Positions 8,704 to 31,310 of a stretch of 64,000 nucleotides of DNA are shown one piece after another. The notes below the pieces were generated by a model. That model worked only from the letters and a program-made list of their open reading frames with translations, searched no databases and was not told where the DNA came from. A program made the position numbers and the translations under genes. Within the stretch, counting starts at the first letter, position 1. Each line of letters begins with the position of its first letter. Location of the stretch: positions 1,922,001 through 1,986,000 of the forward strand of contig NZ_AP027364.1 in assembly GCF_030295975.1 (NCBI RefSeq), given 5' to 3'. This DNA comes from Thalassotalea atypica (GTDB taxonomy: Bacteria > Pseudomonadota > Gammaproteobacteria > Enterobacterales > Alteromonadaceae).

Positions 8704-11700
8704 TGATAGCTTGGTTTGCTCGAAATCACGTTGCCGCCAATTTGTTGATGATCACCATTTTACTTATTGGCCTAATGTCACTCAATACACGTATTCCGTT
8801 AGAAGTATTTCCTTCATTTGAGTCAGATGTCATCAATGTTGCAATTTCGATGCGTGGCGGGACGCCAGAAGACGTTGAACAAGGTGTCACGATAAAAGTA
8901 GAAGAAGCGGTACAAGATCTTGAAGGCGTTAAAAAGATCACCAGTACATCGGTTGAAGGGACATCAGTTGTCTCGATAGAAGCGGATTCCGGTTTCGATG
9001 CTCGAGATTTATTGGCGGACATTAAGTCGAGAGTAGATGCGATAAATACCTTGCCGACTGATGCGGAGAAACCGAACATTGCAATCGCCGAACGAAAACG
9101 CGATGTCATAACCGTGTCTATTGCTTCTATTTATTCTGAAAAAGAAATCCGAGAATTTGCCGAGCAAGTGCGCGATGATTTGCTCAAGTTACCGCAAGTA
9201 ACGCAATTGGAACTGGACGCGGTGAGAAATTATGAAATTGGTATTCATATCTCGCAAGACAAACTTCGTGAATACAATTTAACCCTTGCTGATATCAGCA
9301 GTGCTGTAGGTAATAGCTCTTTGGATATGTCTGCAGGTAATGTTCGCACAGAAGGCGGTGATGTGTTAGTGCGCAGTAAAGGGCAAGCTTATCGAAAGGA
9401 TGAATTTGAAAAAATCGTTATCAAAACCTATCCAGATGGCACAATAGTGCAGGTCAAAGACATCGCCGAGGTAAATGATGGCTTTGAAGAGACACCGTTA
9501 AGGGCAAGGTTCAATGGCCAACAAGGGGCTATGATAGAAATTTACCGTATTGGCCAACAAAATGCGATAGAAGTGGCTGATGCAGTAAAAGCTTATATCC
9601 AAGAAAGGCAAAATGATTTACCTGAAGGCTTTGAATTAAGTTATTGGGATGATGACTCTGAAATAGTTAAAAGCCGTTTGGAAACCTTGATTTCAAACGC
9701 AATGCAAGGTGGTTTTTTGGTCTTATTGTTATTGACGTTATTTTTAAGACCTAGCATTGCATTTTGGGTGTTTATTGGTATTCCTATTAGCTTTATGGGC
9801 GCTTTTGTTGTTATGCCGTTTTTTGATATTTCGCTTAATATCATGAGTTTATTTGGTTTTATATTGGTGTTGGGGATCGTTGTTGATGACGCCATTGTCA
9901 CAGGTGAGAACATATATCGGCACACGCAATTTGCCAATTCTGGCCTAGAAGCCGCAGTAAAAGGGACACAAGAAGTCGCAACACCAGTAACATTTGGTAT
10001 CTTAACCACTATTGCAGCTTTTTTACCTTTGGCGTTCATTGAAGGTATGCGAGGGGCCTTGTTTGCTCAAATCCCAGTCGTTGTTATACCAGTCTTATTG
10101 TTCTCGTTAATTGAATCAAAATTTGTGCTGCCTTCGCATTTAAAGCGTCTTAAGTTACGCCATGAGAAGACACAATCGTCAAAATTGTCGCAGTGGCAAG
10201 AACGCTTTGCTGATGGTTTTGAAAATTCAATCATCAAATATTACCGTCCATTGCTGGAAAGGGCAGTCAACAATCGCTTGTCAACATTAACTCTCTTCAT
10301 AGGTACCTTTGTTTTAATTTTAGCTTTCATAACCAGTGGTTGGACAAAATTTACCTTCTTTCCTCGTATTCCTAGCGAAACGGCTAGAGCGACATTAACT
10401 ATGCCGGTAGGTACTAGTTTCGATGTAATTGACGGTTACGTTGAGAAAATGTCTAATGCTGCAGCGTTGCTTAAAGAAAAGTACACGAACGAAGCTGGCG
10501 ATAGTGTCATTGTCAATATTCTTGCAATTACTGGTGGTGGTCGATCAGATAACGAAGGTCGTGTCAGGTTTGAAATCATTCCTGCCGATAAAAATGACAC
10601 AGGAATCACCATCAGGCAATTAGTGAACGAATGGCGAGAGCTTATTGGTCCGTTACCAGGCGCCGAGGGTTTAACCTTTAGGGCAGAAATTGGACGCGGC
10701 GGTGACCCTATTGATGTGCAACTGGCTGCAAATGATTTGACCTTGCTTAAAACCGCAGCAGAAGAAGTTAAAACTTATATTGCGCAATACCCTACAGTAT
10801 TTGAAATTGCTGACAGTTTATCTAATGGTAAGGAAGAGCTACAAATTGAGCTTAATGAACAAGGGCATGCGATGGGGATGTCAAGCTCTTCCATCACAAG
10901 GCAGGTTCGAAATGCTTTTTTTGGCGCCGAAATCCAGCGTATTCAGCGCGGTCGAGACGATGTCAGGGTGATGCTACGATTTCCACTCAGTGAGCGAGTC
11001 TCTGTGTCGCATTTATCAGACATGCTGATCATTACCCCAACAGGTGGCCAAGTGCCTTTATCACATGTGGCGACATTAAAACCGGGTAAAAGCCCATCTA
11101 CTATTAAGCGTATCGATCGCTATCGTACGGTGAATATTACCGCAGATGTTGATAAAGAAAGCACCAACATGACTGTGCTGACGGCTGATTTGAAACCATT
11201 TATGGATGATCTTGTGTTGAAATACCCAAGTATCAGCTACACGCTAGAAGGGGAAGCGAAAGAGCAAGCTGAATCGTTTGGCAGTTTATATTGGGGCTTA
11301 ATCTTTGTCTTCTTCATTATTTATTGCTTGTTAGCGATCCCATTTGGCTCATACCTGCAGCCGCTCATCGTTATGTCAGTGATACCTTTTGGTGCTATTG
11401 GTGCGGTAGTTGGGCACTGGATCATGGGCATGGATTTAACGATCATGAGTATGCTTGGTTTGATGGCATTAATAGGGGTAGTGGTAAACGACAGCTTAGT
11501 ACTCGTAGATTTTATCAACAAACAACGCGCTAAAGGTGTTGAGTTGATGCAAGCCGTGGTCACTGCTGGTCAAGCTCGATTTAGACCGGTCATGTTGACT
11601 TCGATGACCACCTTTATCGGCTTGATGCCACTACTGTTTGAAAAGGCAACACAGGCCCAGTTTTTGATTCCTATGGCGGTATCTTTAAGTTTTGGTATTG

Positions 11701-16633: not shown

Positions 16634-17701
16634 GTGAATTGGAAAGAATTAATAGAGAATAGAAATCGCTTCTTCTGGGTGTTACACACCGCAGGATGGT
16701 TGGGTTTCGCTTTGATCCAATTTCTTGGCTCGCTACTTCATGATCTGCGAGATATTTTTGTCGTGGTCATTTTGTTGAATTCATATGCTGGCTGGATGTT
16801 GACCGTGCCATTACGTTACGTTTATCGACGTGCATGGAATCTGTCACCTCTAAAAATTGCGGGGGTTATTGTCTTAACGTCGTACGTCACCGCTGTGTTG
16901 TGGCAGGTGATACGTAATGTAAATTATTGGGAAATATACAAACACGGCTATAAACCTGATTTCTGGTTGTACTATACGCAGTCGAGTGTTTGGTCTTTCT
17001 ATATTATCTTAAGCTGGAGTGGCTTGTACTTTGGTATTAAGTATTATCAAATGCTGCAAAAAGAAAAGCAAAACGTGCTGCAAGCTAATACATTAGCGCA
17101 CCAAGCGCAGCTAAAAATGTTGCGCTACCAACTTAACCCTCACTTTTTGTTTAATACACTAAATGCTATTTCAACGTTAATTTTAGTCAAAGAGAATACG
17201 ACCGCTAACGCCATGGTCACCAAGCTCAGTGAGTTTTTACGTTATTCGTTAGATAAAGATCCAATGAAACGCGTTTCTTTAGAAAATGAAATGCAAGCCC
17301 TTAAGTTGTATTTGGATATTGAGAAAGTGAGATTTGAAGAGCGTCTTCAAGTCGTGGTTAATATCGCATCAGACTGTCAGCAAGCACTTGTGCCGAGTAT
17401 GATTTTGCAACCGTTAGCCGAGAACGCGATTAAACATGCAATTGCTGTACAAGAAAATGGTGGCACCATTACTATCTCTGTCAATAGATTCGGTAATGAT
17501 TTGTTACTCGAACTTGCTGATGACGGACCAGGAGCTGAAATCAAAAATGGCAACTTGTATAGAGAAAGCGGGGTTGGGCTAGTAAATACACGTGAACGGC
17601 TACAAGCGCTCTATAAAAATAATTATTCACTTGTCGTCTCCCAAAATAATCCGTCAGGTGTTAAAGTAAACATTAGAATTCCCTACGAATTAGGAAGTTA
17701 G
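16634..17701 (+). CDS. LytS/YehU-type sensor histidine kinase
   Basis: A 355-residue membrane sensor kinase. The start is GTG; the ATG two bases upstream is followed at once by TGA. Four hydrophobic segments occupy residues about 13-145. The His_kinase (PF06580-type) segment LRYQLNPHFLFNTLNAI has the phospho-acceptor H170. The HATPase part contains ILQPLAENAIKHAI and ELADDGPGAEI, with GVGLVNTRERL. The response-regulator gene starts one base after the stop, so the pair is co-expressed. The signal is unknown; there is no extra periplasmic sensor domain. Confidence 0.9.
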   Translation: MNWKELIENRNRFFWVLHTAGWLGFALIQFLGSLLHDLRDIFVVVILLNSYAGWMLTVPLRYVYRRAWNLSPLKIAGVIVLTSYVTAVLWQVIRNVNYWEIYKHGYKPDFWLYYTQSSVWSFYIILSWSGLYFGIKYYQMLQKEKQNVLQANTLAHQAQLKMLRYQLNPHFLFNTLNAISTLILVKENTTANAMVTKLSEFLRYSLDKDPMKRVSLENEMQALKLYLDIEKVRFEERLQVVVNIASDCQQALVPSMILQPLAENAIKHAIAVQENGGTITISVNRFGNDLLLELADDGPGAEIKNGNLYRESGVGLVNTRERLQALYKNNYSLVVSQNNPSGVKVNIRIPYELGS

Positions 17702-17702
17702 T

Positions 17703-18521
17703 ATGTCACTGTCAACGATAGTTGTTGATGATGAACCACTTGCCCGTAAAGGTTTAGCAATACGGCTAGCGGAGCACGATGATATCGATCTTATTGCACA
17801 ATGTGGCAATGGCAGAGAAGCCATTGAAGCAATCCGTGCTTATCAACCCGATTTGATGTTTTTAGACATTCAAATGCCCGGTCTAAATGGATTTGAAGTG
17901 CTCGACGAAATTGTCGCTCAAGGATTAAAGCTACCAATGGTAGTTTTTGTCACTGCATTTGATCAATATGCCATTAAAGCGTTTGATATTCATGCCGTCG
18001 ATTACCTAATGAAACCTGCTGATGAAGTCCGACTTGCCCAATCATTGGAAAAAGTACGTTTAGCCATTCAAGCGCAGACGGATGTTGATCATAAAAACAA
18101 GCTGGTACAGTTAGTCAGTAATGTCACGGGTAGTGATACTAATAAAATACTTGAAGAGCTCTCTAATAATGATGAGTTATCAATATCCAAATACTCTGAT
18201 GTATTACCAATCAAAGACGGCGGCGAGCTGAGTCGAGTGCCAGTAAATAGCATTTTGTGGATTGACGCTGCAGGTGACTATATGTGTGTTCATACTGATG
18301 AAAATACCCACATACTACGTAAAACAATGAAACAGCTAGAAGAGGTGTTGGATCCTCGACAGTTCATTCGTAGCCACCGCTCAACTATTGTCAACAAGCA
18401 ATATATCCAAAAATTCTGTAGCCAGTTAAACGGTGAGTATTACTTAGTAATGAGTAATGGTAAAGAGCTTAAAGTCAGTCGAAGCTATAAAGAAAAAGTT
18501 AAACAAGCAGTCACTAATTAA
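17703..18521 (+). CDS. LytTR-family response regulator
   Basis: 272 residues. An N-terminal receiver domain has the acidic pair in VVDDEPLARKGL, the phospho-acceptor D55 in LMFLDIQMPG, and a conserved Lys in YLMKPA. A linker leads to a C-terminal LytTR DNA-binding domain (ILWIDAAGDYMCVHT, FIRSHRSTIVNKQYI). It is the partner of the kinase just upstream. LytTR regulators bind paired direct repeats; none was identified nearby, so target genes are unknown. The gene ends 67 bp before the convergent phosphofructokinase. Confidence 0.92.
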   Translation: MSLSTIVVDDEPLARKGLAIRLAEHDDIDLIAQCGNGREAIEAIRAYQPDLMFLDIQMPGLNGFEVLDEIVAQGLKLPMVVFVTAFDQYAIKAFDIHAVDYLMKPADEVRLAQSLEKVRLAIQAQTDVDHKNKLVQLVSNVTGSDTNKILEELSNNDELSISKYSDVLPIKDGGELSRVPVNSILWIDAAGDYMCVHTDENTHILRKTMKQLEEVLDPRQFIRSHRSTIVNKQYIQKFCSQLNGEYYLVMSNGKELKVSRSYKEKVKQAVTN

Positions 18522-18588
18522 CAATTCTTTTTGTATTAACTACTGTTTGATGCTGCAGCGTAACCTTGTCTGATAGGTTGATGATGGT

Positions 18589-19602
18589 TTAATTTGATCG
18601 AGCCGTTAATGCCAGTATGTTTTGCTGGGCTGCTACTAGGTTTTCGTTAACAGTTTTACTGTGCTTTATCGTCTCACTAAGAGCCACTTCAACGATTTCA
18701 TTGTCACGTTCGCCCAGCATCAATAAGCTCTTACCAACTTTAATAGCTTGTACTGCCCCAACACCTAGTTTGGTAGCTAAAATTCTATCCTTAGCTACCG
18801 GAGAACCCCCTCGTTGGATATGACCAAGTACACAAGCTGCACAGTCAATATTAAATTGTTCTTTCAATTGTTCGGCCAAATGCATAGCACCACCAGGCCA
18901 AAGGTTTTCAGCAAGGACAACCAAATAACTATTGTCTTTACTTTTTTGCTCAGCATATATTTCTTCGGCGAGCTCAGCTAGCTTGTCTTCTGCTTGGCTT
19001 GGATGGAAATTTTCAAATGATATGATTTGTTCTGCGGCACAGGCGACGCCAACATTAAAAGCAATATGGCCACTGTTTCGGCCCATGAGCTCGACAATGA
19101 AAACACGGTCAAAGGCATTGGCTGTATCCCTTATTTTGTCTATGGCTTCAATGGCTGTGTTTATGGCCGTAGCAAACCCTATGGTATAATCTGTGCCGTC
19201 TAAGTCATTATCTATTGTCCCAGGCAAACCAATCACCTGACCACGCCATTGTTCAGCAATTGCTAATAAACCAGTAAAGGAGCCGTCACCCCCAATGACA
19301 ATTAATGCATCTATTTGCTCTTTGATAAGCGTGTTTATGGCTTGTTGAACACCTGTTTTTGTCCTTAGCTCGGGGCATCTAGCACTTTTTAATAAGGTAC
19401 CACCTTGTTGAATGATATTATTCACTGCTTCAATTTTAAGCTTAGCGATATCCGCATTTATCAAGCCGTTATAGCCATGATAAACACCTATACAGTCATA
19501 GTTGTAGCGATTGCAGGCCAATACAATAGCTCGTATGGCGGCATTCATTCCAGGCGCATCGCCACCACTTGTTAGTATGGCGATTTTTAACTTCTTATTC
19601 AT
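18589..19602 (-). CDS. pfkA: 6-phosphofructokinase
   Basis: An ATP-type phosphofructokinase that commits fructose-6-phosphate to glycolysis. Motifs include TSGGDAPGMNAAIRA near the start, GGDGSFTG (a Gly-Gly-Asp-Gly pattern typical of ATP-dependent enzymes rather than GGDD of PPi enzymes), LPGTIDNDLDGTD with the catalytic Asp, and ELMGRNSGHIA. The ATG at 19602 gives 337 residues and begins NKKLKIAIL; a GTG at 19617 would add five residues, but neither start has a strong Shine-Dalgarno sequence. It stands alone and converges with the two-component operon. It is notable beside a complete Entner-Doudoroff set. Confidence 0.93.
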   Translation of the reverse strand: MNKKLKIAILTSGGDAPGMNAAIRAIVLACNRYNYDCIGVYHGYNGLINADIAKLKIEAVNNIIQQGGTLLKSARCPELRTKTGVQQAINTLIKEQIDALIVIGGDGSFTGLLAIAEQWRGQVIGLPGTIDNDLDGTDYTIGFATAINTAIEAIDKIRDTANAFDRVFIVELMGRNSGHIAFNVGVACAAEQIISFENFHPSQAEDKLAELAEEIYAEQKSKDNSYLVVLAENLWPGGAMHLAEQLKEQFNIDCAACVLGHIQRGGSPVAKDRILATKLGVGAVQAIKVGKSLLMLGERDNEIVEVALSETIKHSKTVNENLVAAQQNILALTARSN

Positions 19603-19617
19603 AAGCACATTTAACAC

Positions 19618-19928
19618 TTTGTTAAAGATTATTAAATATCATTATCGTACTAGCGTTAATAATCAAGTAATGAATCAGTCGATATATAATTTTATTGAAC
19701 TAGGACAACTAATTCATTTCATTGTTCTTTCAGCAATTTTTTTGATCGTAGAGTTTATTCTTAGTTACCGTAGTGTACTCATAACAATTTTGTGACAGTT
19801 ACAGTTAATTACAGTGTTAACTCATGAATTTGGTTTAAAATAACCTAAAGGATCATCACTTTGATCAACTTGAAAATAGTGTACTTTCATTGTTTTTAAT
19901 TAATTAACAACCGAGACATGAAGTTGAT
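19618..19928. other. Intergenic region, divergent promoters
   Basis: About 310 bp between pfkA (minus) and the envelope operon (plus). It is A+T rich, and short GTTACAGTTAATTACAGT repeats lie near 19797-19814. No gene, terminator or clear operator was recognised. It presumably carries promoters for both directions. Confidence 0.4.
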
Positions 19929-20693
19929 ATGTTAAAAAGACTTGCTATACCGTTAGTGATTGCGTCGTTAAGTGCTTGTGTTGCGAGCCCTGATACAGCA
20001 CACAAAGCATCGCCGTTGCATGCTAATACAACGTCAGAGCAATCAATCAATGAGAAGAGTTTTACTCAGCTAAATAAGCGACTGACATTGATAGAGCAAA
20101 ATATCGTTGAGCAAATAGAATCGAAGTGCCAGATAAAGAATAGCTCAGATGAAAATGCCCAATTGTCGAACCTATTGACTGCACAGGCTAATGTTAAACA
20201 TGCTCCAGTAAAAAAAACACAACCTCAATCAGCCAAAGTCGTTGAGAAAATTGTCGTGGAGCAATGCAACCAAGAGCAGCCATTGATTGTTGGCGCGGTT
20301 GAACATGTCAGCTTTATCAAAGAACAGTTAAGCTTCGATGCACGCATAGATACTGGTGCAGCGACATCTTCTATCGGTGTCTATGAATTAACACCATTTG
20401 AACGGGACGGGGCTGATTGGGTTCGGTTTAAACTGGAAAACACTAAGGTCGCGATCGGCTTTGAATACCCAGTAATTGGCAAGGTTCAAATTAAACAACA
20501 AAGCAGCAAAAAATCTGTGACGCGGTTGGAAATAAAGATTGGCGTAGTGCTGGGTGACAAACAATATCGTCACCAAGTGTTCAATCTAGCAGATCGTAGC
20601 CACCTAGATTATCAAATTATGATCGGACGCTCTTTTTTAGAAAATAATGCGCTAGTCGATGTAAGCAAACAATTTTTACTAGGTAAGAAATAA
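19929..20693 (+). CDS. Retropepsin-like lipoprotein (RimK-associated ATP-dependent zinc protease family)
   Basis: 254 residues. The signal peptide ends in the lipobox L14-S15-A16-C17, so this is a probable outer-membrane or periplasmic lipoprotein. A low-complexity linker (residues 25-115) leads to a C-terminal domain of the family labelled ATP-dependent zinc protease. The aspartic-protease-like motif ARIDTGAATSSIG has D141; MIGRSFLENNALVDV closes the fold. The retropepsin-like Asp suggests an aspartic rather than zinc mechanism. It is the first gene of a five-gene operon, 1 bp ahead of the next start. Substrate unknown. Confidence 0.85.
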   Translation: MLKRLAIPLVIASLSACVASPDTAHKASPLHANTTSEQSINEKSFTQLNKRLTLIEQNIVEQIESKCQIKNSSDENAQLSNLLTAQANVKHAPVKKTQPQSAKVVEKIVVEQCNQEQPLIVGAVEHVSFIKEQLSFDARIDTGAATSSIGVYELTPFERDGADWVRFKLENTKVAIGFEYPVIGKVQIKQQSSKKSVTRLEIKIGVVLGDKQYRHQVFNLADRSHLDYQIMIGRSFLENNALVDVSKQFLLGKK

Positions 20694-20694
20694 C

Positions 20695-22194
20695 ATGATG
20701 TCACGTGCGCCTTTTTTCTTTTTAGTCATTGTTTTAGTATTTTTAGGCAGTATAAGCACCTATTTTCGTCATGTTGAGATTGGTATCCCTATAATTCCAG
20801 GCAAACAAATTGAAACATGGCAAGTAGAGGCGAAAATTGAATTTATTGGCACGTCAGCACCAATTAACGCAAAGCTAACGCTGCCCAAAGATGTAAACTT
20901 TGAGCTGGTCGATGAGTTCACGGCATCGCCAGCTTATGGCGTAAGTGTTATCAGAAATGAAAACCAAGCAGAAGTGAACTGGAATAAAAGGGCGGTTCAA
21001 GGGCGCCAAATATTATATTACCAAGGCACATACAAAAAAGTTTCAAACGTTGAAACTGCACCAGACTATAACACATTGCCCGTTGCAGATATTCTGGAAG
21101 AGCCGTACGAGAGTGCTGCTAATGCATTCTTCCAAACCGCTTATGCTAAATCTGGCAATGAAGAGTCTTTGATCACAGAAATCTTAAATAGATTAGACAC
21201 TAAGGATCAAGAAATTACGTTATTGAAGTCACAGTTTGGTAAAACGGAATTGTTCGTTCATTTTATGCATAAAGCACGAATACCAGCCAAACTTGTTAAA
21301 GGCTTAGTGCTGGAAGATGGCCGCCGAAATCAACAATTAGTGCCGTTAGTGAAAGTGTTCATCAATGAAAAGTGGCACACAATTAACGTAGAATCTCATG
21401 TAGTTGGTGAAGTTGAACAAGTATTGATTTGGCAGCAAGACTCACCAGCATTGCTTGATTTAGAAGGTGGTAGGCAGTCGAGAGTCAGCTTTTCTATTGC
21501 TCACAGCATGAAAGAAGCGTTGCAAGACTCCGTAGATTCGTCAAACAAAGACGACATTTTAGGGTTTAGTATGTACCAATTGCCTATTGAAGAGCAAAAT
21601 GTCTTTAAAGGGATATTGCTGTTACCAATAGGAGCACTAGTAGTAGTATTTTTAAGGGTGCTAGTTGGCTTAAAATGTAGCGGCACATTCATGCCAATAT
21701 TAATTGCTACGTCGTTTACCCAAACGAATTTACTCAATGGCTTAATGGGCTTTTTATTGATCGTTTCACTTGGTCTTATGATCCGCTCCTATTTGTCTCG
21801 CTTGAATCTATTGCTCGTCTCTAGAATATCCGCGGTGGTGATGGTCGTTATCGCGATTATTTTGATCTCAACAGTATTGGCATTTAGGTTAGGGATAACG
21901 GATGCATTAACCATTGCTTTTTTCCCTATGGTGATTATGGCATGGACAATCGAGCGTATGTCTATCCTTTGGGAAGAAGAAGGAGGCAGCGAAGTACTCA
22001 TACAAGGTGGCGGAAGCTTAATAGTTGCCATTATCGCTTACTTGATGATGGACAATATGTTGATCCGTCACTGGGCGTTTAACTTCCTCGGTGTTCACTT
22101 AATTATACTAGCAGCTATTTTAATGATGGGGCAATACACCGGCTATCGTCTATTAGAGCTTTATCGTTTTAGACCAATGGCACGAAAACATTAA
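20695..22194 (+). CDS. Inactive transglutaminase fused to seven-TM domain
   Basis: 499 residues. One N-terminal membrane segment (residues about 5-22) is followed by a roughly 240-residue periplasmic part with a transglutaminase-like fold. The segment where the catalytic Cys would be (LLKSQFGKTELFVHFMHKA) has none, so the domain is probably inactive; a His remains in KWHTINVE. From residue about 300 on there are seven hydrophobic helices. The family is known by annotation only (inactive transglutaminase family protein) and is usually encoded with the two neighbouring gene types. It could be a scaffold or sensor that presents a peptide to its partners. Confidence 0.82.
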   Translation: MMSRAPFFFLVIVLVFLGSISTYFRHVEIGIPIIPGKQIETWQVEAKIEFIGTSAPINAKLTLPKDVNFELVDEFTASPAYGVSVIRNENQAEVNWNKRAVQGRQILYYQGTYKKVSNVETAPDYNTLPVADILEEPYESAANAFFQTAYAKSGNEESLITEILNRLDTKDQEITLLKSQFGKTELFVHFMHKARIPAKLVKGLVLEDGRRNQQLVPLVKVFINEKWHTINVESHVVGEVEQVLIWQQDSPALLDLEGGRQSRVSFSIAHSMKEALQDSVDSSNKDDILGFSMYQLPIEEQNVFKGILLLPIGALVVVFLRVLVGLKCSGTFMPILIATSFTQTNLLNGLMGFLLIVSLGLMIRSYLSRLNLLLVSRISAVVMVVIAIILISTVLAFRLGITDALTIAFFPMVIMAWTIERMSILWEEEGGSEVLIQGGGSLIVAIIAYLMMDNMLIRHWAFNFLGVHLIILAAILMMGQYTGYRLLELYRFRPMARKH

Positions 22195-22195
22195 G

Positions 22196-23164
22196 ATGGG
22201 GATTTTTAACTTTGCCAACCCATTTGTGTTAGCAAACCGTGGCGTCATGGGGATGAATCAGCGAAATTTTTCCTATATTTCGCGCTATAACAAGCGAGAG
22301 CTTTACCCGAATGTAGATGACAAGTTAAAAACTAAGCATCTTGCGATAGGTAATGGAATAGCCGTGCCTGAGCTCATTGGCGTAGTCAGGTTTCAACATG
22401 ATGTGAAAAAGGTCTTTGATTTACTTAAAAGGCATCAAGGTTTTTGTATTAAGCCGGCAAAAGGTAGTGGCGGGAAAGGGATTTTGGTTATCTTGTCGAC
22501 AGATGAAAAGGGTTATAAGAAAGCCAGTGGAGATTATGTCAGTAAAGACGAAATTATCAGGCATATCTCGAATATTTTGGCGGGTCTGTTTAGCTTAGGC
22601 GGTGCGTCTGATGTCGCTGTGATTGAAGCATTAATCGAATTTGATCCTATTTTTGATGGTTTAAGTCATGAAGGTGTGCCAGATATAAGAATGATTGTCT
22701 TTCAAGGCTATCCTATGATGGCCATGCTAAGGCTTGCAACTCACGCTAGCGATGGCAAAGCCAATTTGCATCAAGGGGCTGTTGGGGTAGGCATTAATAT
22801 AGCGACAGGCAAAGCTAAACATGCCGTACAATTTGATAAACCCATTAAATTCCACCCTGATACCGAACAACCTTTGGATCAAGTACAGATTACCAATTGG
22901 GAGAGTTTACTCAGATTGTCAGCAAGTTGTTATGAAATGTCGGGCTTGGGTTATTTAGGTGTTGATATTGTATTAGACAAGACGTTAGGACCATTAGTTT
23001 TGGAATTGAATGCTAGGCCAGGATTAGCCATACAGATTGCTAATGGCATGGGCATGTTACCAAGGCTAAAGGCGATTGAAGCACTCGCTAAAGCGAGGGG
23101 CTTTAAAGCCCGACCTGATGTTAAGCAACGGGTAGATTATGCAAAAAGTCAGTTCAACGATTAG
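22196..23164 (+). CDS. RimK-like alpha-L-glutamate ligase (ATP-grasp)
   Basis: 322 residues, cytoplasmic by sequence. ATP-grasp elements are present: GFCIKPAKGSGGKGILV (nucleotide loop), the acidic pair in VIEALIEFDP, VPDIRMIVFQGYPMMAMLR, and the metal-binding VLELNARPGLAIQIANG. RimK enzymes add glutamates to a carboxylate; the acceptor is unknown here. The start is one base after the transglutaminase-like gene. The 3' end overlaps the start of the next gene by 26 bp. The recurring trio with the retropepsin-like and 7TM proteins implies a shared pathway. Confidence 0.86.
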   Translation: MGIFNFANPFVLANRGVMGMNQRNFSYISRYNKRELYPNVDDKLKTKHLAIGNGIAVPELIGVVRFQHDVKKVFDLLKRHQGFCIKPAKGSGGKGILVILSTDEKGYKKASGDYVSKDEIIRHISNILAGLFSLGGASDVAVIEALIEFDPIFDGLSHEGVPDIRMIVFQGYPMMAMLRLATHASDGKANLHQGAVGVGINIATGKAKHAVQFDKPIKFHPDTEQPLDQVQITNWESLLRLSASCYEMSGLGYLGVDIVLDKTLGPLVLELNARPGLAIQIANGMGMLPRLKAIEALAKARGFKARPDVKQRVDYAKSQFND

Positions 23165-25019
23165 CGCTATTTGCCGTCTATTTTTTATTATTGGGCTACT
23201 AGGTCACAACTTAGCTTATGCTGGCGGAGTGCAATCCGCTCAGAGGGATCTGTATGGACACGACATTGGAAAGCGTTGTGGTATTATCTTTGGGCAACTA
23301 AAAAGCGCAGCGAATCAGCCATCAAAGCTAGTGACTAGCAATAAATCGGCGACTTTCTTCGATACTATTCATTCCCTAGAACAAACGCTGATCCCAGCGC
23401 AAAACCTCCTATTTGAAAGCTATCTCATGGCTGATGTTTCGCCAGATAAAGACATTCAGAAACAAGCGCGTGCATGTCAGCTTAAGTTAAGTGCCGCAAT
23501 GGATCTCCTCATAGGAAGTGAGGCTATGTCATCACTATTAAAGCTTGCTAAACAAAGGGTAACCAATTCGTCTGAGCAACGAGTGTTGGATAGGTATCAA
23601 CAGCAGCATTTATCTTTAGCAAATGAAGACTATGCGGTAAATAAGCAACAGCTTAAAGAAGTCGCTGCTGCATTCCGTCAAGGGACAACGGCTAAGGTTA
23701 ATAAGCCATTTGAACTTTCATATGCCTGCCTTCAAAAATTGCCTAAAAAGCTAAAAACTGAATTTGATGAAACAGGACATTCATCACTAGCGATCAATAA
23801 GCGTCTGTATTTATCACTATTGAATAAACATCCTGTGTCTAATTGTCGTCAAGAGGTTTATCGACAATACCAAAGACGTCATGAACAAGGCAACCAAGCG
23901 CATTTAGCTGCACTTATCACGAAGAAAAATAGAGGTGCAAAATACTTGGGCTATCAGAATTTTGCTGAATATTCGTTGCGCAACACTCAGCTTGAATCTG
24001 TTGATAACGTCAACGCGTTATTGACTGAAATTGCCTCAAAATTACCATCATCTTCAGCGCCTTGGGATTATCGCTTTGACGCAAAGCAAGAGAAAATGGC
24101 CAATGGCCGTAACAATAAAAAATCAGCCGCGCAAACAATCACACCAGAAATAGCCCATCAAGGACTGTTTAAGTTGCTAAAGTCGGAGTTCGCTTTAACA
24201 ATTACTCAACTTGCTGTGCCCACTTGGCATAGTAGCGTTCAAGCATACGAACTCACGCAGAACGATAAACTGATAGGCGAGTTTTATTTAGATCTTTATA
24301 GCAGAGAAGGCAAATACAAAAAAAACCGTCATAGGGCGATACAACGAGGCGTTACAAATGTTCAGTTGCCTCGTAGCGCTTTGATCTTAAGTTTGCCGAA
24401 AAAAAATTGGCGACAAAAGCACTTAAAGTCGTTCTTCCATGAGTTTGGCCACTTACTGCATAACATGTTATCAACTCAGCCTTATCACGTTAATGCTGGG
24501 ATCAGTATTGAGAGTGATCTTATCGAAATGCCAGCAAAATGGTTTGAATGGCTTAGTTTTGACCCAGCAGTACAACAGCAAATGTTTGGTCAAGTCATCG
24601 TTGATAGTCAAGGCGCGGCGCAAGAAACGCCATTTAAGTTAAGACTCTATCGCGCGGCAATGGCCTTGGCATATTTTTCTGAGTCGCCAGAAGGAAATTC
24701 GCTGCAGCTTGAACAAATCAATCAAAGACTGTTCAGGCAGTATACGGGTTTTGACTATCCTAAGAGCGCCTCAAGCCAATACAGCTTTTCACATCTGGCG
24801 ACCTATGGCCCTCGATATTTTAGCTACATATTTTCTGAGCTTGTTGCGCGAAAACTACTGCGTGACTACAAGGCTAGGAAGTTTAAAGGAGCAGATTTTT
24901 TGACTAAAATAATAGCAAAGGGGGGAAGTAAAACAATGGCAGAAATGCTAAGTGATTTATATCATTCGCCCTTAACTATCAATCAATTCATTAACTGGGT
25001 AAGCCATGATGAGCTTTGA
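23139..25019 (+). CDS. Secreted M3-family metallopeptidase
   Basis: 626 residues with an N-terminal signal peptide (about residues 1-28, ending NLAYAGG). The zinc motif H434-E-F-G-H438 is intact, and the third ligand Glu probably lies in IESDLIEMPAKWFEW about 25 residues on. Length and the alpha-helical N-terminal half agree with thimet/oligopeptidase F-like M3 enzymes, which cut short peptides in a closed channel. Unlike cytosolic OpdA, this one should act in the periplasm. It overlaps the ligase gene upstream by 26 bp and the next gene downstream by 14 bp. Confidence 0.87.
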   Translation: MQKVSSTISAICRLFFIIGLLGHNLAYAGGVQSAQRDLYGHDIGKRCGIIFGQLKSAANQPSKLVTSNKSATFFDTIHSLEQTLIPAQNLLFESYLMADVSPDKDIQKQARACQLKLSAAMDLLIGSEAMSSLLKLAKQRVTNSSEQRVLDRYQQQHLSLANEDYAVNKQQLKEVAAAFRQGTTAKVNKPFELSYACLQKLPKKLKTEFDETGHSSLAINKRLYLSLLNKHPVSNCRQEVYRQYQRRHEQGNQAHLAALITKKNRGAKYLGYQNFAEYSLRNTQLESVDNVNALLTEIASKLPSSSAPWDYRFDAKQEKMANGRNNKKSAAQTITPEIAHQGLFKLLKSEFALTITQLAVPTWHSSVQAYELTQNDKLIGEFYLDLYSREGKYKKNRHRAIQRGVTNVQLPRSALILSLPKKNWRQKHLKSFFHEFGHLLHNMLSTQPYHVNAGISIESDLIEMPAKWFEWLSFDPAVQQQMFGQVIVDSQGAAQETPFKLRLYRAAMALAYFSESPEGNSLQLEQINQRLFRQYTGFDYPKSASSQYSFSHLATYGPRYFSYIFSELVARKLLRDYKARKFKGADFLTKIIAKGGSKTMAEMLSDLYHSPLTINQFINWVSHDEL

Positions 25020-27111
25020 CAATAGGTTGCTCTACATCGTTTTCATTTTTGTCATTTTGGGGCATTCGTATGCCGCACAGGCCAAAGAAAGCGAGTCATT
25101 ATCTTACCAAGATGTGGCCAATGGAATTCAACAAACGTTTGAGTCTCGGCTATTTGAATTGCCACCACGAATTCAAGGACATTATGGAATACGCCTATAT
25201 CGTATGACCGGTGATGAAAAGTATTTACCCAGTGCACTGTATGATTATTATGTGGTTGCTGATCGCATGCATGCGATTGTTGATGGTATTGATAATAAAT
25301 CTTTTATCAAAGAGCGCAGTGAGTACCTAACTGGCGCGATGAGTAAGGGTAAAAGGGGAAAAGCGCGCAGAAAAGCACTGAAAGCATTTCCTGAATTCAT
25401 TTTTTATGCGGATGAGTTATTGAGACATGCGGCAAGGTTGAACGCTTTTGGTGTTGAATTACCGGGAAAAATTAAACGCACCATTGCTCAGTACGACTAC
25501 TTACCTGCAATTACCGATAAAACTATGATCCAAGCTTGGGCGGCGCAAATTGCCAATTATGTATACTGGCTACATCAATTGGGCATTGCTGATCATAGAG
25601 TTGCATATAAAGAAGCTTTTCTAGCGGCATACCCCGATAAAGAAGATGATAAGTTATCTCGCTGGCATTTTAGAAACAAAGTTTACGGTTTGACCCATTT
25701 TATTTTCGCAGCCTCTGGGTTTTATCAGCACAACGTATCGTCTAATGAATTTGGTTGGATACTCGATTATTTTGATCAGAACAAGCGGCGCATACTAAAC
25801 GATGCTACAGATGATATTGTGGCAGAGGTAGGCATTAGTTTTTTATTGATGGATAAGAAGAGCCACCCTTTGGTTGAACTGACTAAACAACGGCTCGTGC
25901 GTGCCTATAATGTGGAAGCTGGCATGATACCGTCAGTATCAGGAAAGTTGATTTTGTCGTCCGGCGAGCACCGCAATGTATTAACTTATATGCTGATGAC
26001 TTGGCCAGAACAGTTAACCCCCGGACCGTTTTTTAACGAACTTGAATCAATGAATAAGTATGTCCCTGTTCAATTGCTTGATAATAAACAAAAAATTAAC
26101 AAAGCAAAAAATATCGAAAATAAGGAAACCTACCAGCAATCGGCAAATAAGATCAGAGCCGAGTACGATAGTAACTTTTTAAAGCTTAAAACATCTGCCC
26201 AAAATCATTATGCGGCAAGAATGTACCGGTTAACGGGAGATACGCATTATGCGAGTCAGGCGGTAAATGAAGTTTATCAAATCTCTGAACGGTTAGATGA
26301 TTACGCAAACAGCCTAGACAGTGCTACTTGGCGTGTTGAACAAGCAAGAGCAATGATTGATAGATTGCCAACAACAAAGCGCGGTAAGCGTCGCAAAAAT
26401 GCACTCGCTAACACGGGCGATAAACGCTTTGCGCTTTATTTAGTGTACCAATTGGCAAAATTAAACGAGTATGGACTTGAACATCCTGCTCATCAGCAAT
26501 TTATACGATACTTAAAACAAGCTGACTTACATGACTTATTGATGTCACCACAATTCATTAAAGCCTATGCGGCCCAAGTAGCGAACTACGTTTACTGGTT
26601 GAAAACCATGGATGTGGTTGATTGGACAGGGGAGCTAAAAATGGCCTTTGAGTCGGCTTACCCTGACGCTTACGATCAAAAATTAACGAAAAGCGAATTT
26701 AACAACAAGGTTTATGGTTTAACTCATATCATATTGGCCGATAGTAACTACTATCAAAACTTAGTGAGTGCGACGGAGCACCAATGGATTTTGGATTATT
26801 TTGAGCGGCATGAAGATAGAATCGTGAATAAGACTAAAGCAGACATACAAGCTGAAGTAGGCTTGAGTTTCTTACTGACCGAGCAGGGGCAACATAAAAC
26901 GTTAAAAGCCATGAAAGTATCAATTCAGAATGCGATTCACCCAACAAAGGATCGGGTACTGTCGTCAAAAGGGAATGATGATTTAAGCAAAGGCGAGCAT
27001 AGAAATGTACTGGCGTATGCCTTATTAAATTGGCCGGATAAATTATTCAAAGGGCCAATACTAAACGAACATCCCGAGTTGAAAAGACGATTACCTAGTC
27101 ATTACCAATAG
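25006..27111 (+). CDS. Secreted duplicated-domain protein (DUF3541-like)
   Basis: 701 residues with a signal peptide (about 1-25). It is built of two homologous halves, roughly residues 30-350 and 375-700. Shared blocks include RLYRMTGDEKYL / RMYRLTGDTHYA, AAQIANYVYWLHQL / AAQVANYVYWLKTM, KVYGLTHFIFA / KVYGLTHIILA, WILDYF / WILDYF and SSGEHRNVLTYML / SKGEHRNVLAYAL. I believe this matches DUF3541, but I am not certain. Alpha-helical, no membrane segment after the signal. Last gene of the operon; a bidirectional terminator follows. Function unknown. Confidence 0.75.
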   Translation: MMSFDNRLLYIVFIFVILGHSYAAQAKESESLSYQDVANGIQQTFESRLFELPPRIQGHYGIRLYRMTGDEKYLPSALYDYYVVADRMHAIVDGIDNKSFIKERSEYLTGAMSKGKRGKARRKALKAFPEFIFYADELLRHAARLNAFGVELPGKIKRTIAQYDYLPAITDKTMIQAWAAQIANYVYWLHQLGIADHRVAYKEAFLAAYPDKEDDKLSRWHFRNKVYGLTHFIFAASGFYQHNVSSNEFGWILDYFDQNKRRILNDATDDIVAEVGISFLLMDKKSHPLVELTKQRLVRAYNVEAGMIPSVSGKLILSSGEHRNVLTYMLMTWPEQLTPGPFFNELESMNKYVPVQLLDNKQKINKAKNIENKETYQQSANKIRAEYDSNFLKLKTSAQNHYAARMYRLTGDTHYASQAVNEVYQISERLDDYANSLDSATWRVEQARAMIDRLPTTKRGKRRKNALANTGDKRFALYLVYQLAKLNEYGLEHPAHQQFIRYLKQADLHDLLMSPQFIKAYAAQVANYVYWLKTMDVVDWTGELKMAFESAYPDAYDQKLTKSEFNNKVYGLTHIILADSNYYQNLVSATEHQWILDYFERHEDRIVNKTKADIQAEVGLSFLLTEQGQHKTLKAMKVSIQNAIHPTKDRVLSSKGNDDLSKGEHRNVLAYALLNWPDKLFKGPILNEHPELKRRLPSHYQ

Positions 27112-27134
27112 TGGTTCTATTTAATCAAGCATAA

Positions 27135-27167
27135 AAAAGCCAGTCTTATAGACTGGCTTTTGTTTTT
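27135..27167. terminator. Bidirectional terminator between the envelope operon and pykA
   Basis: An 11-bp stem AAAAGCCAGTC / GACTGGCTTTT with loop TTATA is flanked by A's on the left and T's on the right. It works in both directions and ends the plus-strand operon and the minus-strand pykA. Confidence 0.9.
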
Positions 27168-27187
27168 ATCTGATAGTAAGAGTCAAA

Positions 27188-28642
27188 CTAAGCTTTTAAC
27201 ATCTCTTTAGTAATCTTAAGAATTTTCACAGTATTTGATGCTCCGACGGTTTCCATTAAGTCACCGTGGGTGAATATCACTTTATCATTCACTTCAAGAT
27301 CTAGCTTTTGAATTACTTGCGCTAAGACGTCATTAGCTAAACTTTCATTGCTGCTAGTCGTTGAATCAAATGATACCGGGTAGACACCACGGTAAATTGC
27401 CATTTTGTTTAATGACTTTTCGTGGCGCGATAAAGAAAAAATCGGTAAGCCAGAGGTAATACGCGACATAATTTTAGCTGTTTGGCCCGATTCCGTAAGC
27501 GCAATTATTGCCTTAACCCCTTTTAAGTGGTTAGCTGCATACATTGCCGATAGAGCAACAGTTTCTGAGACTTCCTCAAACATGAGTTCGATACGGTGAC
27601 CAGAAGTGTTGACTGAGCGATGCTTTTCGGCGCCAAGACATACATTATCCATTGCCTGTACAGTTTCTACTGGGAACTGACCTGCAGCGGTTTCAGCAGA
27701 AAGCATTACCGCATCAGTACCATCAAGCACGGCGTTGGCTACATCCATAACTTCAGCACGTGTCGGCATTGGGCTTTCGATCATGGTTTCCATCATTTGC
27801 GTTGCTGTAATAACAACACGGTTTAATTGACGGCTTCGCGCAATGATATGTTTTTGCTTACCGACAAGCTCAGCATCGCCAATTTCAACACCCAAATCGC
27901 CACGAGCAACCATAACAACATCAGATGCTAAGATGATTTCATCAAGGACTTTATCGTCAGATACTGCTTCAGCACGTTCAATTTTTGAAACCAAACGAAC
28001 ATCCGCACCGGCTTCTTGAGCAAGCAAGCGAGCTTCGCGCATGTCAGCGGCATCACGTGGGAATGATACGGCTAGGAAATCTGCTTCAAGTTTTGCGGCT
28101 AATTTGATGTCTTCTTTATCTTTATCAGTTAACGCGGCTGCAGATAAACCACCACCTTGACGGTTAATCCCTTTGTTATTAGACAATGGACCACCAATAG
28201 TAACCTCAGTGAATACTGATTGGCCCTTAGTGCTCAACACTTTTAATTGAACTCTACCATCATCAAGTAACAAAATATCGCCTGTGCCAACATCTTGAGG
28301 AAGCTCTTTGTAATCTATTCCTACTTTGTCTTGATTACCTTCGCCTTTGGCAAGTGATGCATCTAATTCAAACTTATCGCCAATATTTAAGCGAATAGGT
28401 CCATCTTTGAACGTCGAAATTCGAATTTTAGGACCTTGTAAATCGCCCAAAATACCAACATAAATTCCTAATTCTTTTGCTATTTCTCTAACCATATTGG
28501 CACGGTTAATGTGATCTTCTGGAATACCATGCGAGAAATTTAAACGTACTACGTTTACGCCAGCTTCTAAGATCTGTTTTAGTACTTCTCTATCATCTGT
28601 TGCCGGGCCGAGTGTGGCAACAATCTTCGTTCTTCTTGGCAT
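27188..28642 (-). CDS. pykA: Pyruvate kinase (PykA type)
   Basis: 484 residues. It converts phosphoenolpyruvate and ADP to pyruvate and ATP. Motifs include [12 protein letters not shown] at the start, NFSHG, the metal/active site [21 protein letters not shown] and [12 protein letters not shown]. Length and N-terminus agree with PykA (AMP/sugar-phosphate activated) rather than PykF. It lies 66 bp downstream of hexR on the same strand, but a hairpin terminator stands between them. HexR is known to control pykA in Shewanella; no full HexR site is visible immediately upstream here. Confidence 0.96.
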
Positions 28643-28673
28643 CTTAGTCCTTCATATTTCTTTGGTAGTAATT

Positions 28674-28702
28674 AAAAAAGGCATACAAATTTTGTATGCC
28701 TT
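28674..28702 (-). terminator. Intrinsic terminator or attenuator between hexR and pykA
   Basis: On the minus strand a 12-base inverted repeat AAGGCATACAAA / TTTGTATGCCTT runs into six T's (28679-28674). It ends only about 31 bp before the pykA start codon, leaving little room for a separate pykA promoter. It may be a partial terminator that tunes pykA relative to hexR. Confidence 0.75.
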
Positions 28703-28708
28703 ACAATG

Positions 28709-29557
28709 CTATTCTTTGCGGTCAAAGCGCGAACTACGTAAGCTGTCTTTAACCTTTTTCAGGTTGTCTCTAAATTTAGTGCCACGACGTAAGGTAAAAC
28801 CAGTAGCTAAAATATCGATCAGGGTTAACTGCGCAATTCGTGATGACATCGGCATATATAAATCAGTATCTTCTGCAACATCTACAGATAATACTATGGA
28901 ACATTCCTTCGCCAGTGGTGTACCTTCAGAGGTGATACCAATAACTGTTGCATCATTTTCTTTGGCTAAACTAGCCACTTCAACTAGCGATTTAGTACGT
29001 CCGGTATGTGAAATTAAAATAACCACATCACCTTGTTGGCTATTAATAGCGCTCATGCGCTGCATTAATATGTCATCAAAATAAACAACAGGAACATTGA
29101 ATCTAAAGAATTTATTTTGTGCGTCATGGGCAACAACAGCGGATGCACCTAAACCAAAAAATGAAATTTTGTTTGCTTGGGTTAATAAGTCAACTGCGCG
29201 ACTAATGCCTTTAGTACTTAAACTTTTACGTGCTAATTCAAGACTGGCCATTGTTGATTCAAAAATTTTAGCTGTGTATTCGTCAGCCGTATCATCTTCA
29301 TCAACATGTCGATTTACATAAGGTGTACCGTTAGCCAAACTTTGCGCTAAATGTAATTTAAAATCAGGGTAACCTTTGGTGTCTAATCGGCGGCAAAACC
29401 TATTAACGGTGGGCTCACTGATATTAGCTTGTTTGGCGAGTGCGGCTATACTTGCATGAATAACAGTGCTTGGTGAAGCTAGAATAACTTCAGCAACTTT
29501 TCTTTCTGATTTACTGAAAGTGTCTAGTTCTGTCGTGATCTTTTCTAATATATTCAT
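28709..29557 (-). CDS. hexR: HexR, RpiR-family regulator of central carbon metabolism
   Basis: 282 residues. An N-terminal HTH_6 domain (residues about 1-77; IAALAKQANISEPTVNRFCRRL) is followed by a SIS sugar-phosphate-binding domain (ISFFGLGASAVVAHDAQNK, VVILISHTGRTKSLVEVA). HexR senses 2-keto-3-deoxy-6-phosphogluconate and controls Entner-Doudoroff, gap and pyk genes in gammaproteobacteria. Matching palindromes are seen upstream of zwf and gapA in this window. It is divergent from zwf across 283 bp and is followed by pykA. Confidence 0.95.
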   Translation of the reverse strand: MNILEKITTELDTFSKSERKVAEVILASPSTVIHASIAALAKQANISEPTVNRFCRRLDTKGYPDFKLHLAQSLANGTPYVNRHVDEDDTADEYTAKIFESTMASLELARKSLSTKGISRAVDLLTQANKISFFGLGASAVVAHDAQNKFFRFNVPVVYFDDILMQRMSAINSQQGDVVILISHTGRTKSLVEVASLAKENDATVIGITSEGTPLAKECSIVLSVDVAEDTDLYMPMSSRIAQLTLIDILATGFTLRRGTKFRDNLKKVKDSLRSSRFDRKE

Positions 29558-29741
29558 TTAATGTGATCCTAGATCTTTTTCTTAACTGTAATTTATTTTC
29601 TAGATAAATAACAGAAAAAATGAAATTTTCTTTCATATTGAACCGCAATATAAATCAAAATAGCAGTTAGTTGCAAATGTTTAATAAATAATCATGAAGA
29701 ATTCATAATAGAGTATAGAGATACCAGTGCCTTTGAATAAA

Positions 29742-29756
29742 TGTAGTAAAATTACA
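29742..29756. promoter_or_regulatory. HexR operator upstream of zwf (site 1)
   Basis: TGTAGTAAAATTACA fits the HexR consensus TGTARTNNNAYTACA exactly. It lies 84 bp before the zwf start and 185 bp before the hexR start, so it may serve both. The same 15 bases recur upstream of gapA. Confidence 0.85.
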
Positions 29757-29802
29757 AAAAGTTCTTTACTGATGTGTTAACAAGCGCTAAATTAACGGTA
29801 AA

Positions 29803-29817
29803 TGTAGCTTAGTTACA
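29803..29817. promoter_or_regulatory. Second, weaker HexR-like site at zwf
   Basis: TGTAGCTTAGTTACA keeps the outer TGTAG and TTACA of the HexR palindrome but differs at inner positions 6 and 10. It ends 23 bp before the zwf start codon. It could be a lower-affinity site next to site 1. Confidence 0.5.
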
Positions 29818-29840
29818 ATGAGCAAACTAGAGAATTACCT

Positions 29841-31310
29841 ATGAATCAAACTGAAATTCAGTCTAATGCGGAAATCGTCCTATTCGGTGCTTTAGGTGAC
29901 TTGTCGCGACGTAAATTGCTGCCAGCACTTTATCAGCTCGACATGGAAGGCCTACTTCATCAAGACAGCAGAGTCATTGGGGTAGCGCGTCAAGAACATA
30001 CCCAAGAAGAATTTACTGCTTTTGTTAAAGAAAACCTAACGACTTTCGTAGCTGAAGGGCTTAATGAAGAAGTGCTCGAGCGATTTATTGCTAGATTAGT
30101 CTATCAAAAGTTAGATTTTAAAGAGTTGGATAGTTACGGCACATTAGCTAAAACGCTTGAACAAGGAAATGATACTCGGGTTTATTATTATTCAACGCCA
30201 CCTGCCATATATGGTGATATGACTGAAGGTTTATTTAAAGCTGGTCTTATTAAACCAGCAGATCGTGTTGTTATGGAGAAACCTATTGGTCACTGTTTAG
30301 CTTCGTCTAAAGTGATTAACGACATGGTCTCTAGCCGTTTTAGCGAAAATCAAATCTATCGTATCGATCATTACTTAGGTAAAGAAACGGTGCTCAATTT
30401 ATTAGTCCTTAGATTTGCGAACTCATTGTTTACTAACAACTGGGATAGAAACCATATTGACCATGTACAAATCACGGTTGCTGAAAGTGTTGGTATCGAA
30501 GGCCGCTTTGGTTTTTATGATGATGCTGGCCAAATGCGCGACATGGTTCAAAACCACTTGTTGCAAATTTTATCTCTGCTTGCCATGGAGCCTCCGGCTG
30601 ATTTGAGTGCTGACAGTGTTCGTGATGAAAAACTCAAAGTGCTTAAAGCACTTATTCCTATTACTCGTCAGAATGTCAAAGATAAAACCGTTCGTGGTCA
30701 ATACACGGAAGGGTACCTAAAAGGTGGGCTTGTACCAGGTTACTTAGAAGAAGACGGCGCGATTGAAAAAAGTAGCACTGAGACTTTTGTTGCTATTAAG
30801 GCTGAAATTGATAACTGGCGCTGGACAGGTGTACCGTTCTACTTAAGAACCGGTAAACGTATGCCAGCGAAACACAGTGAAATTGTGGTGCAATTTAAAG
30901 AGCAACCTCACAACATTTTCAAAGACAGCTATGAAGACCTACCCGCTAACAAATTAACTATTCGCTTGCAGCCTGACGAAGGTGTCGAGTTACAAGTGAT
31001 GAATAAGGTGCCAGGAATTTCACAGCAAATGGCCATTAGCGAAAATAAGCTTGATTTAAGTTTTTCTGAATCTTATGGCAATGAACGTGTTATTGACGCC
31101 TATGAACGTCTAATGCTTGAAGTCATTAATGGTAATCAGTCGTTGTTTGTTCGTCGCGATGAAGTCGAAGCAGCTTGGGTATGGGCCGACAGTGTTATTG
31201 AAGCGTGGAAGGCAACTAATGATAAGCCTAAGCCTTATGCATCAGGCTCTTGGGGCCCTGTTTCTTCTATATCTTTGATCGCACGTGACGATCGTCAATG
31301 GGTAGAATAA
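29841..31310 (+). CDS. zwf: Glucose-6-phosphate 1-dehydrogenase
   Basis: 489 residues. It oxidises glucose-6-phosphate to 6-phosphogluconolactone with NAD(P)+. The nucleotide-binding motif ALGDLSRRKLLPALY is at residues about 16-30, and the active-site peptide RIDHYLGKE is present with its catalytic His in the usual place. The conserved TGKRMPAK-type segment (RTGKRMPAKHSEI) is also seen. First gene of zwf-pgl-edd-glk-eda; its stop overlaps the pgl start by one base (TAATG). HexR sites lie upstream. Confidence 0.97.
   Translation: MNQTEIQSNAEIVLFGALGDLSRRKLLPALYQLDMEGLLHQDSRVIGVARQEHTQEEFTAFVKENLTTFVAEGLNEEVLERFIARLVYQKLDFKELDSYGTLAKTLEQGNDTRVYYYSTPPAIYGDMTEGLFKAGLIKPADRVVMEKPIGHCLASSKVINDMVSSRFSENQIYRIDHYLGKETVLNLLVLRFANSLFTNNWDRNHIDHVQITVAESVGIEGRFGFYDDAGQMRDMVQNHLLQILSLLAMEPPADLSADSVRDEKLKVLKALIPITRQNVKDKTVRGQYTEGYLKGGLVPGYLEEDGAIEKSSTETFVAIKAEIDNWRWTGVPFYLRTGKRMPAKHSEIVVQFKEQPHNIFKDSYEDLPANKLTIRLQPDEGVELQVMNKVPGISQQMAISENKLDLSFSESYGNERVIDAYERLMLEVINGNQSLFVRRDEVEAAWVWADSVIEAWKATNDKPKPYASGSWGPVSSISLIARDDRQWVE

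Follow-up and report, generated by a model that had tools for sequence, protein, structure and literature searches.

In a 64,000-nucleotide stretch of Thalassotalea atypica DNA (assembly GCF_030295975.1, contig NZ_AP027364.1, positions 1,922,001 to 1,986,000; hereafter the window), five consecutive forward-strand open reading frames (ORFs) occupy positions 19929-27111 and follow one another closely in the ORF listing, with 1 bp between genes at each of the first two junctions and overlaps of 26 and 14 bp at the last two (Table 1). Judged by family content, the first three genes are an rloABC-type operon, alike in gene types and in their arrangement, and the last two, encoding an M3-fold protein and a DUF3541 protein, are a recurrent, lineage-specific extension of that core. 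The rloABC core was already known; the main new point here is that the zinc site of the M3 protein is intact in few lineages, while most relatives have lost the HExxH motif. A preliminary description of this locus had listed five plus-strand genes with these spacings and one terminator, with which both the ORF listing and a 12-pair hairpin agree, and had proposed looking for the five families together elsewhere: they do recur as an operon-like unit in other genomes. Within an order sample of 295 genomes, the five-gene order was found in 20 genomes besides this one, so the layout is more than chance.

Table 1. Features of the five-gene operon in the window
Feature	Position	Strand	Evidence or remarks
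rloA-type gene: retropepsin-like lipoprotein	19929..20693	+	PF05618 97.5 bits
rloB-type gene: Cys-less transglutaminase-like domain and seven-transmembrane (7TM) domain	20695..22194	+	PF14402 344 bits, PF14400 127.5 bits
rloC-type gene: ATP-grasp, glutamate-ligase-like	22196..23164	+	TIGR02291 470.1 bits (cut-off 314.2), PF14397 315.7 bits
M3-fold metallopeptidase, secreted (signal peptide by eye)	23139..25019	+	PF01432 149.4 bits (cut-off 27)
Two-domain DUF3541 protein, secreted (signal peptide by eye)	25006..27111	+	PF12060 669.1 bits, 2 stretches
DUF3541 domain 1	25078..26091	+	Predicted alpha/alpha toroid; single-copy group with Shewanella and Paraferrimonas, support 97/94
DUF3541 domain 2, old paralogue	26101..27108	+	Groups with second copies from Thalassotalea, family f15 and Zooshikella, support 100/99
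Terminator-like hairpin, operon / pyruvate kinase boundary	27135..27161	both	12 pairs, 5 G-C, T tail

The order that characterises rloABC, in which a secreted PF05618 retropepsin, a PF14400/PF14402 protein and a PF14397/TIGR02291 ligase adjoin one another, is present in the window. In Pseudomonas aeruginosa the operon was named in 2025 (PA14_41690-41710-41730, three genes), and the rlo system of Pseudomonas has effects on biofilm and cell shape as well as on osmotic tolerance and sensitivity to antibiotics (PMC12239564, cited throughout from the available part of its text). Three redundant RloA-type proteases are required there in salt-free medium; RloA cleaves stretches of 8 or 10 consecutive Glu, whereas 6 or fewer are left uncut, and deletion of rloB or rloC in the triple rloA mutant restored salt-free growth fully and the other defects partly (PMC12239564). 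With phenotypes, structures and poly-Glu cleavage published for P. aeruginosa, the earlier view that no role was established for these genes no longer holds. By its LSAC motif (Cys17) the window RloA is a lipoprotein; it carries a DTGA active site at Asp141, and among solved structures it matches chains 2pma, 9g59 and 9g58. Asp141, Arg199 and Arg223 were conserved in 137/137 relatives, Arg139 in 96% and Cys17 in 92%; paired by eye with Lys46, Arg114 and Arg137 of the P. aeruginosa protein, Arg139, Arg199 and Arg223 are likely poly-Glu-binding residues. The window genome has only one PF05618 match and thus no RloA redundancy of the kind seen in P. aeruginosa. An eight-Glu codon pattern had no match in the window genome, so a poly-Glu target would need the ligase to make it, and a genome-encoded poly-Glu target for RloA was rejected. 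In RloB the transglutaminase part is free of Cys, as the preliminary description had it, and the sole Cys of the protein (residue 328) falls inside the 7TM match.

The M3-fold protein of the window has an intact zinc site, with HEFGH at 434 (His434, Glu435 and His438), Glu463 as third ligand and His/Tyr columns at 552-563. All of these residues are kept in 5/5 intact rows of the M3 alignment (the window, L105 and L080-L082), which places the intact site in the window genome, an uncultured Thalassotalea (L105) and family f15. The HExxH motif was found in 0/79 other M3 rows (58 named Shewanella, 2 Paraferrimonas and 19 others, some from the same species, with L157 and L106 excluded), among which His434 was kept in 1, Glu435 in 3, His438 in 1 and Glu463 in 1, with two of the four in one row. 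Counted within a scan of named genomes, it was absent from 60/60 unbroken genes (the 58 Shewanella and 2 Paraferrimonas of those rows), and from both pieces of the split M3 gene (8139-9914) of Shewanella sp. KJ10-1 (L157). The preliminary description had the product trimmed outside the cell by the M3 peptidase; with HExxH missing from 79/79 non-intact rows, that role cannot be general.

As modelled, the dead M3 proteins keep a neurolysin-like fold. An AlphaFold2 model of the dead protein of S. subflava (one protein modelled; predicted local distance difference test, pLDDT, 87.1) aligned with neurolysin at Z 23.7 and a root-mean-square deviation (rmsd) of 4.0 over 542 residues, and a profile of the family matched thimet oligopeptidase at E 8.9e-9, results that may both be helped by the 2 intact sequences among the 35 in the underlying alignment. 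Of five dead M3 proteins from family f6 run against Pfam, one scored above the PF01432 cut-off, three were sub-threshold and one had no match. Across 28 of 56 complete Shewanella loci, median pairwise identity was 35.5% for M3, compared with 57.8% for RloA, 63.6% for DUF3541, 77.4% for RloB and 79.6% for RloC. The dead forms of Shewanella and Paraferrimonas make up one clade in the M3 tree (100/100), and the dead form of family f20 stands apart, so that inactivation takes two changes on the best tree, with one not excluded. Like the M3 oligopeptidases OpdA, Dcp, thimet oligopeptidase and neurolysin, the window protein has the fold and the full zinc site, but the operon protein is secreted and its Shewanella and Paraferrimonas versions are without HExxH. 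The window genome encodes two other M3 proteins, distinct from that of the operon, which by length and score we read as OpdA- and Dcp-like. A review devoted to metallopeptidase homologues that are inactive (PMC11266112) mentions neither neurolysin, thimet, oligopeptidase nor 'family M3', and the words oligopeptidase and metallopeptidase are absent from the available text of PMC12239564.

State of the M3 site and number of DUF3541 domains vary together. All five-gene loci whose M3 protein is intact (the window, L105 and three f15 loci) encode two DUF3541 domains, and all those seen with a dead M3 protein encode one; in L105, the closest relative of the window in both the M3 and the DUF3541 trees, the two domains are separate neighbouring genes, whereas the window carries both in a single frame. 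The second domains fall into a single old clade (100/99) with no member from Shewanella or Paraferrimonas, and domain 1 of the window clusters with the single copies of those genera (97/94), in a tree rebuilt without L103, L106, L139, L169, L178 and L099 (L103_E had a branch of 10 in the first tree). The 'duplicated DUF3541' protein of the preliminary description does therefore have two domains, but they are two old paralogues in one frame and not a recent duplication. The simplest reading of these trees would be that the Shewanella group lost both the second DUF3541 copy and M3 catalysis.

The model of the DUF3541 domain (pLDDT 94.9) is almost all helical, and its VIA-align matches are mostly alpha/alpha toroids: LanC at Z 13.4, terpene cyclases at ~12 and GH88/GH105 at ~11, with the likeness covering about residues 6-316. 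This predicts an alpha/alpha-toroid fold class, not a family, as helical models often reach such Z values; unlike these proteins of known fold, DUF3541 had no match to PDB sequences up to E 1 and no Foldseek E-value under 0.001, and the window protein contains no Cys and hence none of the LanC type. Thirty-two alignment columns are invariant in 43 sequences, eight of them basic or His and three acidic, a pattern that would be compatible with an anionic ligand. DUF3541 appeared in no paper found, in searches that missed most subscription papers.

To describe the distribution of the extension, RloB was identified in 147 genomes of the order sample and DUF3541 in 51. The neighbourhoods of all 147 RloB genes were examined; exclusion of 8 distant RloB genes unmatched by BLAST left 139 close-RloB loci, in which genes were counted as linked when on the same strand and within 7 kb of rloB. 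All five genes were present in 21/139 (17 in family f6, 3 in family f15, and the window), and an M3 gene without DUF3541 in 2/139 (one f6, one f20). In family f6, which we infer to be that of Shewanella and whose loci were not selected through DUF3541, 17 of 19 RloB loci had all five genes, 1 had M3 only and 1 had neither. A scan of named genomes through DUF3541, keeping the best 80 of 261 relatives, recovered the five-gene order in 62 loci (59 Shewanella, 2 Paraferrimonas and the uncultured Thalassotalea L105); the 59 Shewanella loci, being found through DUF3541, are uninformative on Shewanella without it. In the other 18/80 (Vibrio, Photobacterium, another Vibrionaceae, Zooshikella and a planctomycete-labelled metagenome-assembled genome) the order was not within the stretch fetched. 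Judged by gene order, then, the five-gene unit is kept together in Shewanella, Paraferrimonas, family f15, one further Thalassotalea and the window. Among the loci of the sample and of the named scan, two of family f2 had two tandem retropepsin-type genes 5' of rloB (L094 5308-7228; L095 5119-7187), the RloB gene was in pieces in G105 (L079 9564-11068) and possibly in S. marina (L162 from 5851), and L287-L294 of families f4 and f7 held distant RloB-like ORFs of ~804-823 residues that scored ~130 bits against the 7TM profile and were unmatched by BLAST with the window RloB.

DUF3541 was accompanied by RloB throughout the genomes checked. RloB was present in 51/51 DUF3541 genomes of the order sample, compared with 147/295 overall, and 8/8 further DUF3541 genomes carried it, each with RloA and RloC adjoining. 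Two of these eight came from a class sample in which the background was 79/369 for RloB and 3/369 for DUF3541, including the window genome; in G661, one of the two, the DUF3541 match was a weak fragment of 37 bits. The other six came through named loci, among them L105 with its linked operon. For the 18 named loci in which the five-gene order was not seen, the check for RloB covered 5 genomes (L106, L166, L167, L169 and L178). Because DUF3541 was always accompanied by RloB in the genomes checked, it looks like an rlo-dependent accessory even where unlinked, as in Vibrio. A promoter motif common to rloA and unlinked DUF3541 was sought in 27 genomes having both and not found, so that co-regulation, though it may occur, gains no support from it; a VxrB-like direct repeat was found in 0/27 rloA, 1/27 DUF3541 and 4/1080 background upstream regions, and the VxrB motif was not found in the available parts of PMC10460444 and PMC4441509.

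Three unlinked DUF3541 occurrences, placed in the first DUF3541 tree, deserve separate mention. A Shewanella genome of family f6 (G120) carries, as well as its operon copy, a second unlinked DUF3541 gene (L099 8391-9581) that groups with Photobacterium, and the unlinked gene of Vibrio pectenicida (L169 9884-10990) groups with Shewanella copies and not with the other Vibrio rows in the tree. In a bin labelled Candidatus Anammoxibacter (Planctomycetota), two DUF3541 genes lie beside an intact M3 gene on the other strand (L106 5872-11032), the M3 N-terminus is signal-like by eye and rloABC is on a separate contig (L300); one of the two DUF3541 genes groups with that of the window, by transfer or misbinning.

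We propose, with about even confidence, that the locus is an extended rlo-type operon in which M3-fold and DUF3541 periplasmic accessories have been added to the core and act on the RloC/RloB product. The cytoplasmic RloC ATP-grasp ligase would make a glutamate-rich, amide-linked product, free or carrier-bound, which would be passed or displayed across the inner membrane by RloB, whose transglutaminase domain, lacking Cys, would bind and not cross-link it; the RloA lipoprotein would then cut the poly-glutamate stretch, so that the product does not weaken the envelope in dilute medium. These three steps follow by analogy from Pseudomonas genetics. In a fourth step, suggested by co-occurrence, by location (signal peptides by eye) and by residue loss, the periplasmic M3-fold and DUF3541 proteins would act downstream on the same product. 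The M3 protein of the window is probably catalytically active, an oligopeptidase removing the short pieces that RloA leaves uncut, and DUF3541 may bind or process the rlo product; in Shewanella and Paraferrimonas the M3 protein may have turned into a non-catalytic binding protein, with the second DUF3541 domain lost. The sequence of ligation, presentation and trimming resembles the full cycle that the preliminary description put forward, for which the biochemical support concerns the RloA step only, in Pseudomonas. A stronger form of the proposal, in which the five genes constitute a complete pathway for exporting and turning over, in the Gram-negative periplasm, a glutamate polymer of non-ribosomal origin, and the Shewanella M3 enzyme became a fast-evolving binder once its second DUF3541 partner was lost, we hold to be doubtful.

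Several results count against an extended rlo operon. The window RloA missed the NCBIfam cut-offs for RloA1/A2/A3 (280/250/210 bits; best 83.5 bits, RloA3) and its RloB that for RloB (302.8 against 900 bits), and since these models are narrow we label the genes rlo-type and not members of them. Neither extra gene was seen in 116/139 loci (9 of the 116 lack rloC or have <2.5 kb after it and are too short to judge), so the core function does not need them, and DUF3541 did not adjoin rlo in 30/51 order-sample genomes. The chance figures for DUF3541-RloB co-occurrence, 1.9e-18 by genome and 1.8e-4 by genus, ignore relatedness and serve only as a guide, and no gapped 5+5-base dyad upstream of rloA and of unlinked DUF3541 in the 27 genomes reached 4 in both sets. 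Loss of M3 catalysis and of the second DUF3541 domain co-vary over very few evolutionary events, perhaps one; Tyr560 is kept in 66/79 dead M3 rows, so not every active-site column was lost; catalytic residues could not be placed in the DUF3541 model; and the RloC product is not identified in the papers cited here, in the parts available.

The many loci without M3 and the uneven conservation of the genes bear on the idea that the M3 and DUF3541 proteins form a separate periplasmic chaperone or quality-control module, with nothing but the rlo promoter in common with the core. That M3 was not seen in 116/139 rlo loci would suit such a module, as would a Shewanella M3 protein evolving much faster than its neighbours (35.5% identity against 77.4% for RloB and 79.6% for RloC); a chance rider, however, would not track RloB so closely as DUF3541 does, in 59/59 genomes checked and even where unlinked, and we think this module unlikely. 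The toroid prediction invites a different alternative, in which the RloC/RloB product is a glycan bearing amide-linked amino acids and DUF3541 is a toroid enzyme acting on its sugar part in the manner of the GH88/GH105 unsaturated glucuronyl hydrolases, enzymes that combine the toroid fold with a catalytic Asp pair. The Pfam name of the ligase family is 'sugar-transfer associated ATP-grasp', the DUF3541 model can be superposed along almost its entire length on GH88/GH105/GH15 toroids (Z 10.5-12.0, and 10.5-11.7 for GH88/GH105), and Asp246, Glu250 and Glu297 are invariant together with eight basic or His residues in 43/43 rows. The same range of Z is nevertheless reached with LanC, terpene cyclases, transcobalamin and thioester-protein domains, since helical folds can score so without kinship; none of the five genes encodes a glycosyltransferase, and the known activity of RloA is on poly-Glu and not on a glycan (PMC12239564). 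A glycan substrate seems to us an improbable reading.

LanC domains head the VIA-align matches of DUF3541 (Z 13.4 over 268 residues, rmsd 4.5), and on that reading the operon would be a system for lanthionine-type peptide cyclisation with DUF3541 as a LanC-like cyclase. LanC holds its zinc in a Cys/Cys/His site, however, and the Cys-free window protein can offer no Cys zinc ligands; other toroids come within ~1-2 Z units, and no precursor peptide or dehydratase family is found among the five genes, so that this scheme is largely refuted and we give it hardly any credence.

An extended rlo operon can also be set against systems with related parts. The window keeps the RloA active site and the likely poly-Glu-binding arginines of P. 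aeruginosa rloABC, but there the operon has three genes, and here two secreted proteins are added and a single PF05618 protein is present. Ribosome glutamylation by RimB-RimK follows a similar logic of retropepsin and ATP-grasp glutamate ligase, with the difference that RimB is cytoplasmic (PMC12239564), whereas the window protease carries a lipoprotein motif and its gene is separated from that of the ligase by a 7TM gene. Inactive transglutaminase domains of polymorphic toxins have likewise lost the catalytic triad, and peptide binding has been suggested for them, but they precede RHS repeats (PMC3482391), and that of the window is fused to seven transmembrane helices; the available text of PMC3482391 contains neither ATP-grasp nor DUF3541. 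In S. vesiculosa, disruption of hm2192, which encodes an inactive transglutaminase and is rloB-type by description only, raised vesicle output 1.9-fold and broadened vesicle size (PMC12096838). The single-crossover disruption may be polar; the word 'operon' is absent from the available text of that paper, and hm2192 is not among the complemented genes there.

The operon lies between a phosphofructokinase gene on the opposite strand (18589-19617) and a pyruvate kinase gene (27188-28642), which is convergent with it and shares the terminator-like hairpin. A promoter scan of 18500-28500 gave 18 promoter-like sites compared with 25.5 in shuffles, so that neither a first nor an internal promoter could be placed. 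Among 7 genomes of the genus only the window genome has RloB, and no other genome of its family is found among the 147 with RloB in the order sample. In two congeners the gap between the phosphofructokinase and pyruvate kinase genes holds a single lipoprotein-like gene of ~290 residues (L310 2643-3503; L314 477-1352), where the window has the operon (19617-27188). This difference and the distribution of RloB suggest that the operon was likely gained by transfer. G+C content (0.37-0.43 in the operon, 0.35-0.43 around it) carries no compositional sign of transfer, and insertion at a tRNA was rejected, there being no tRNA in 17000-30000.

Under the stronger and doubtful form of the proposal, DUF3541 would serve as a first marker for organisms in which the glutamate polymer has a use beyond the core system. 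The two additional secreted companions of rlo provide new handles on its substrate. Comparison of lineages with intact and dead M3 proteins would show which step needs catalysis, and Shewanella would offer a host outside Pseudomonas with the full five-gene set.

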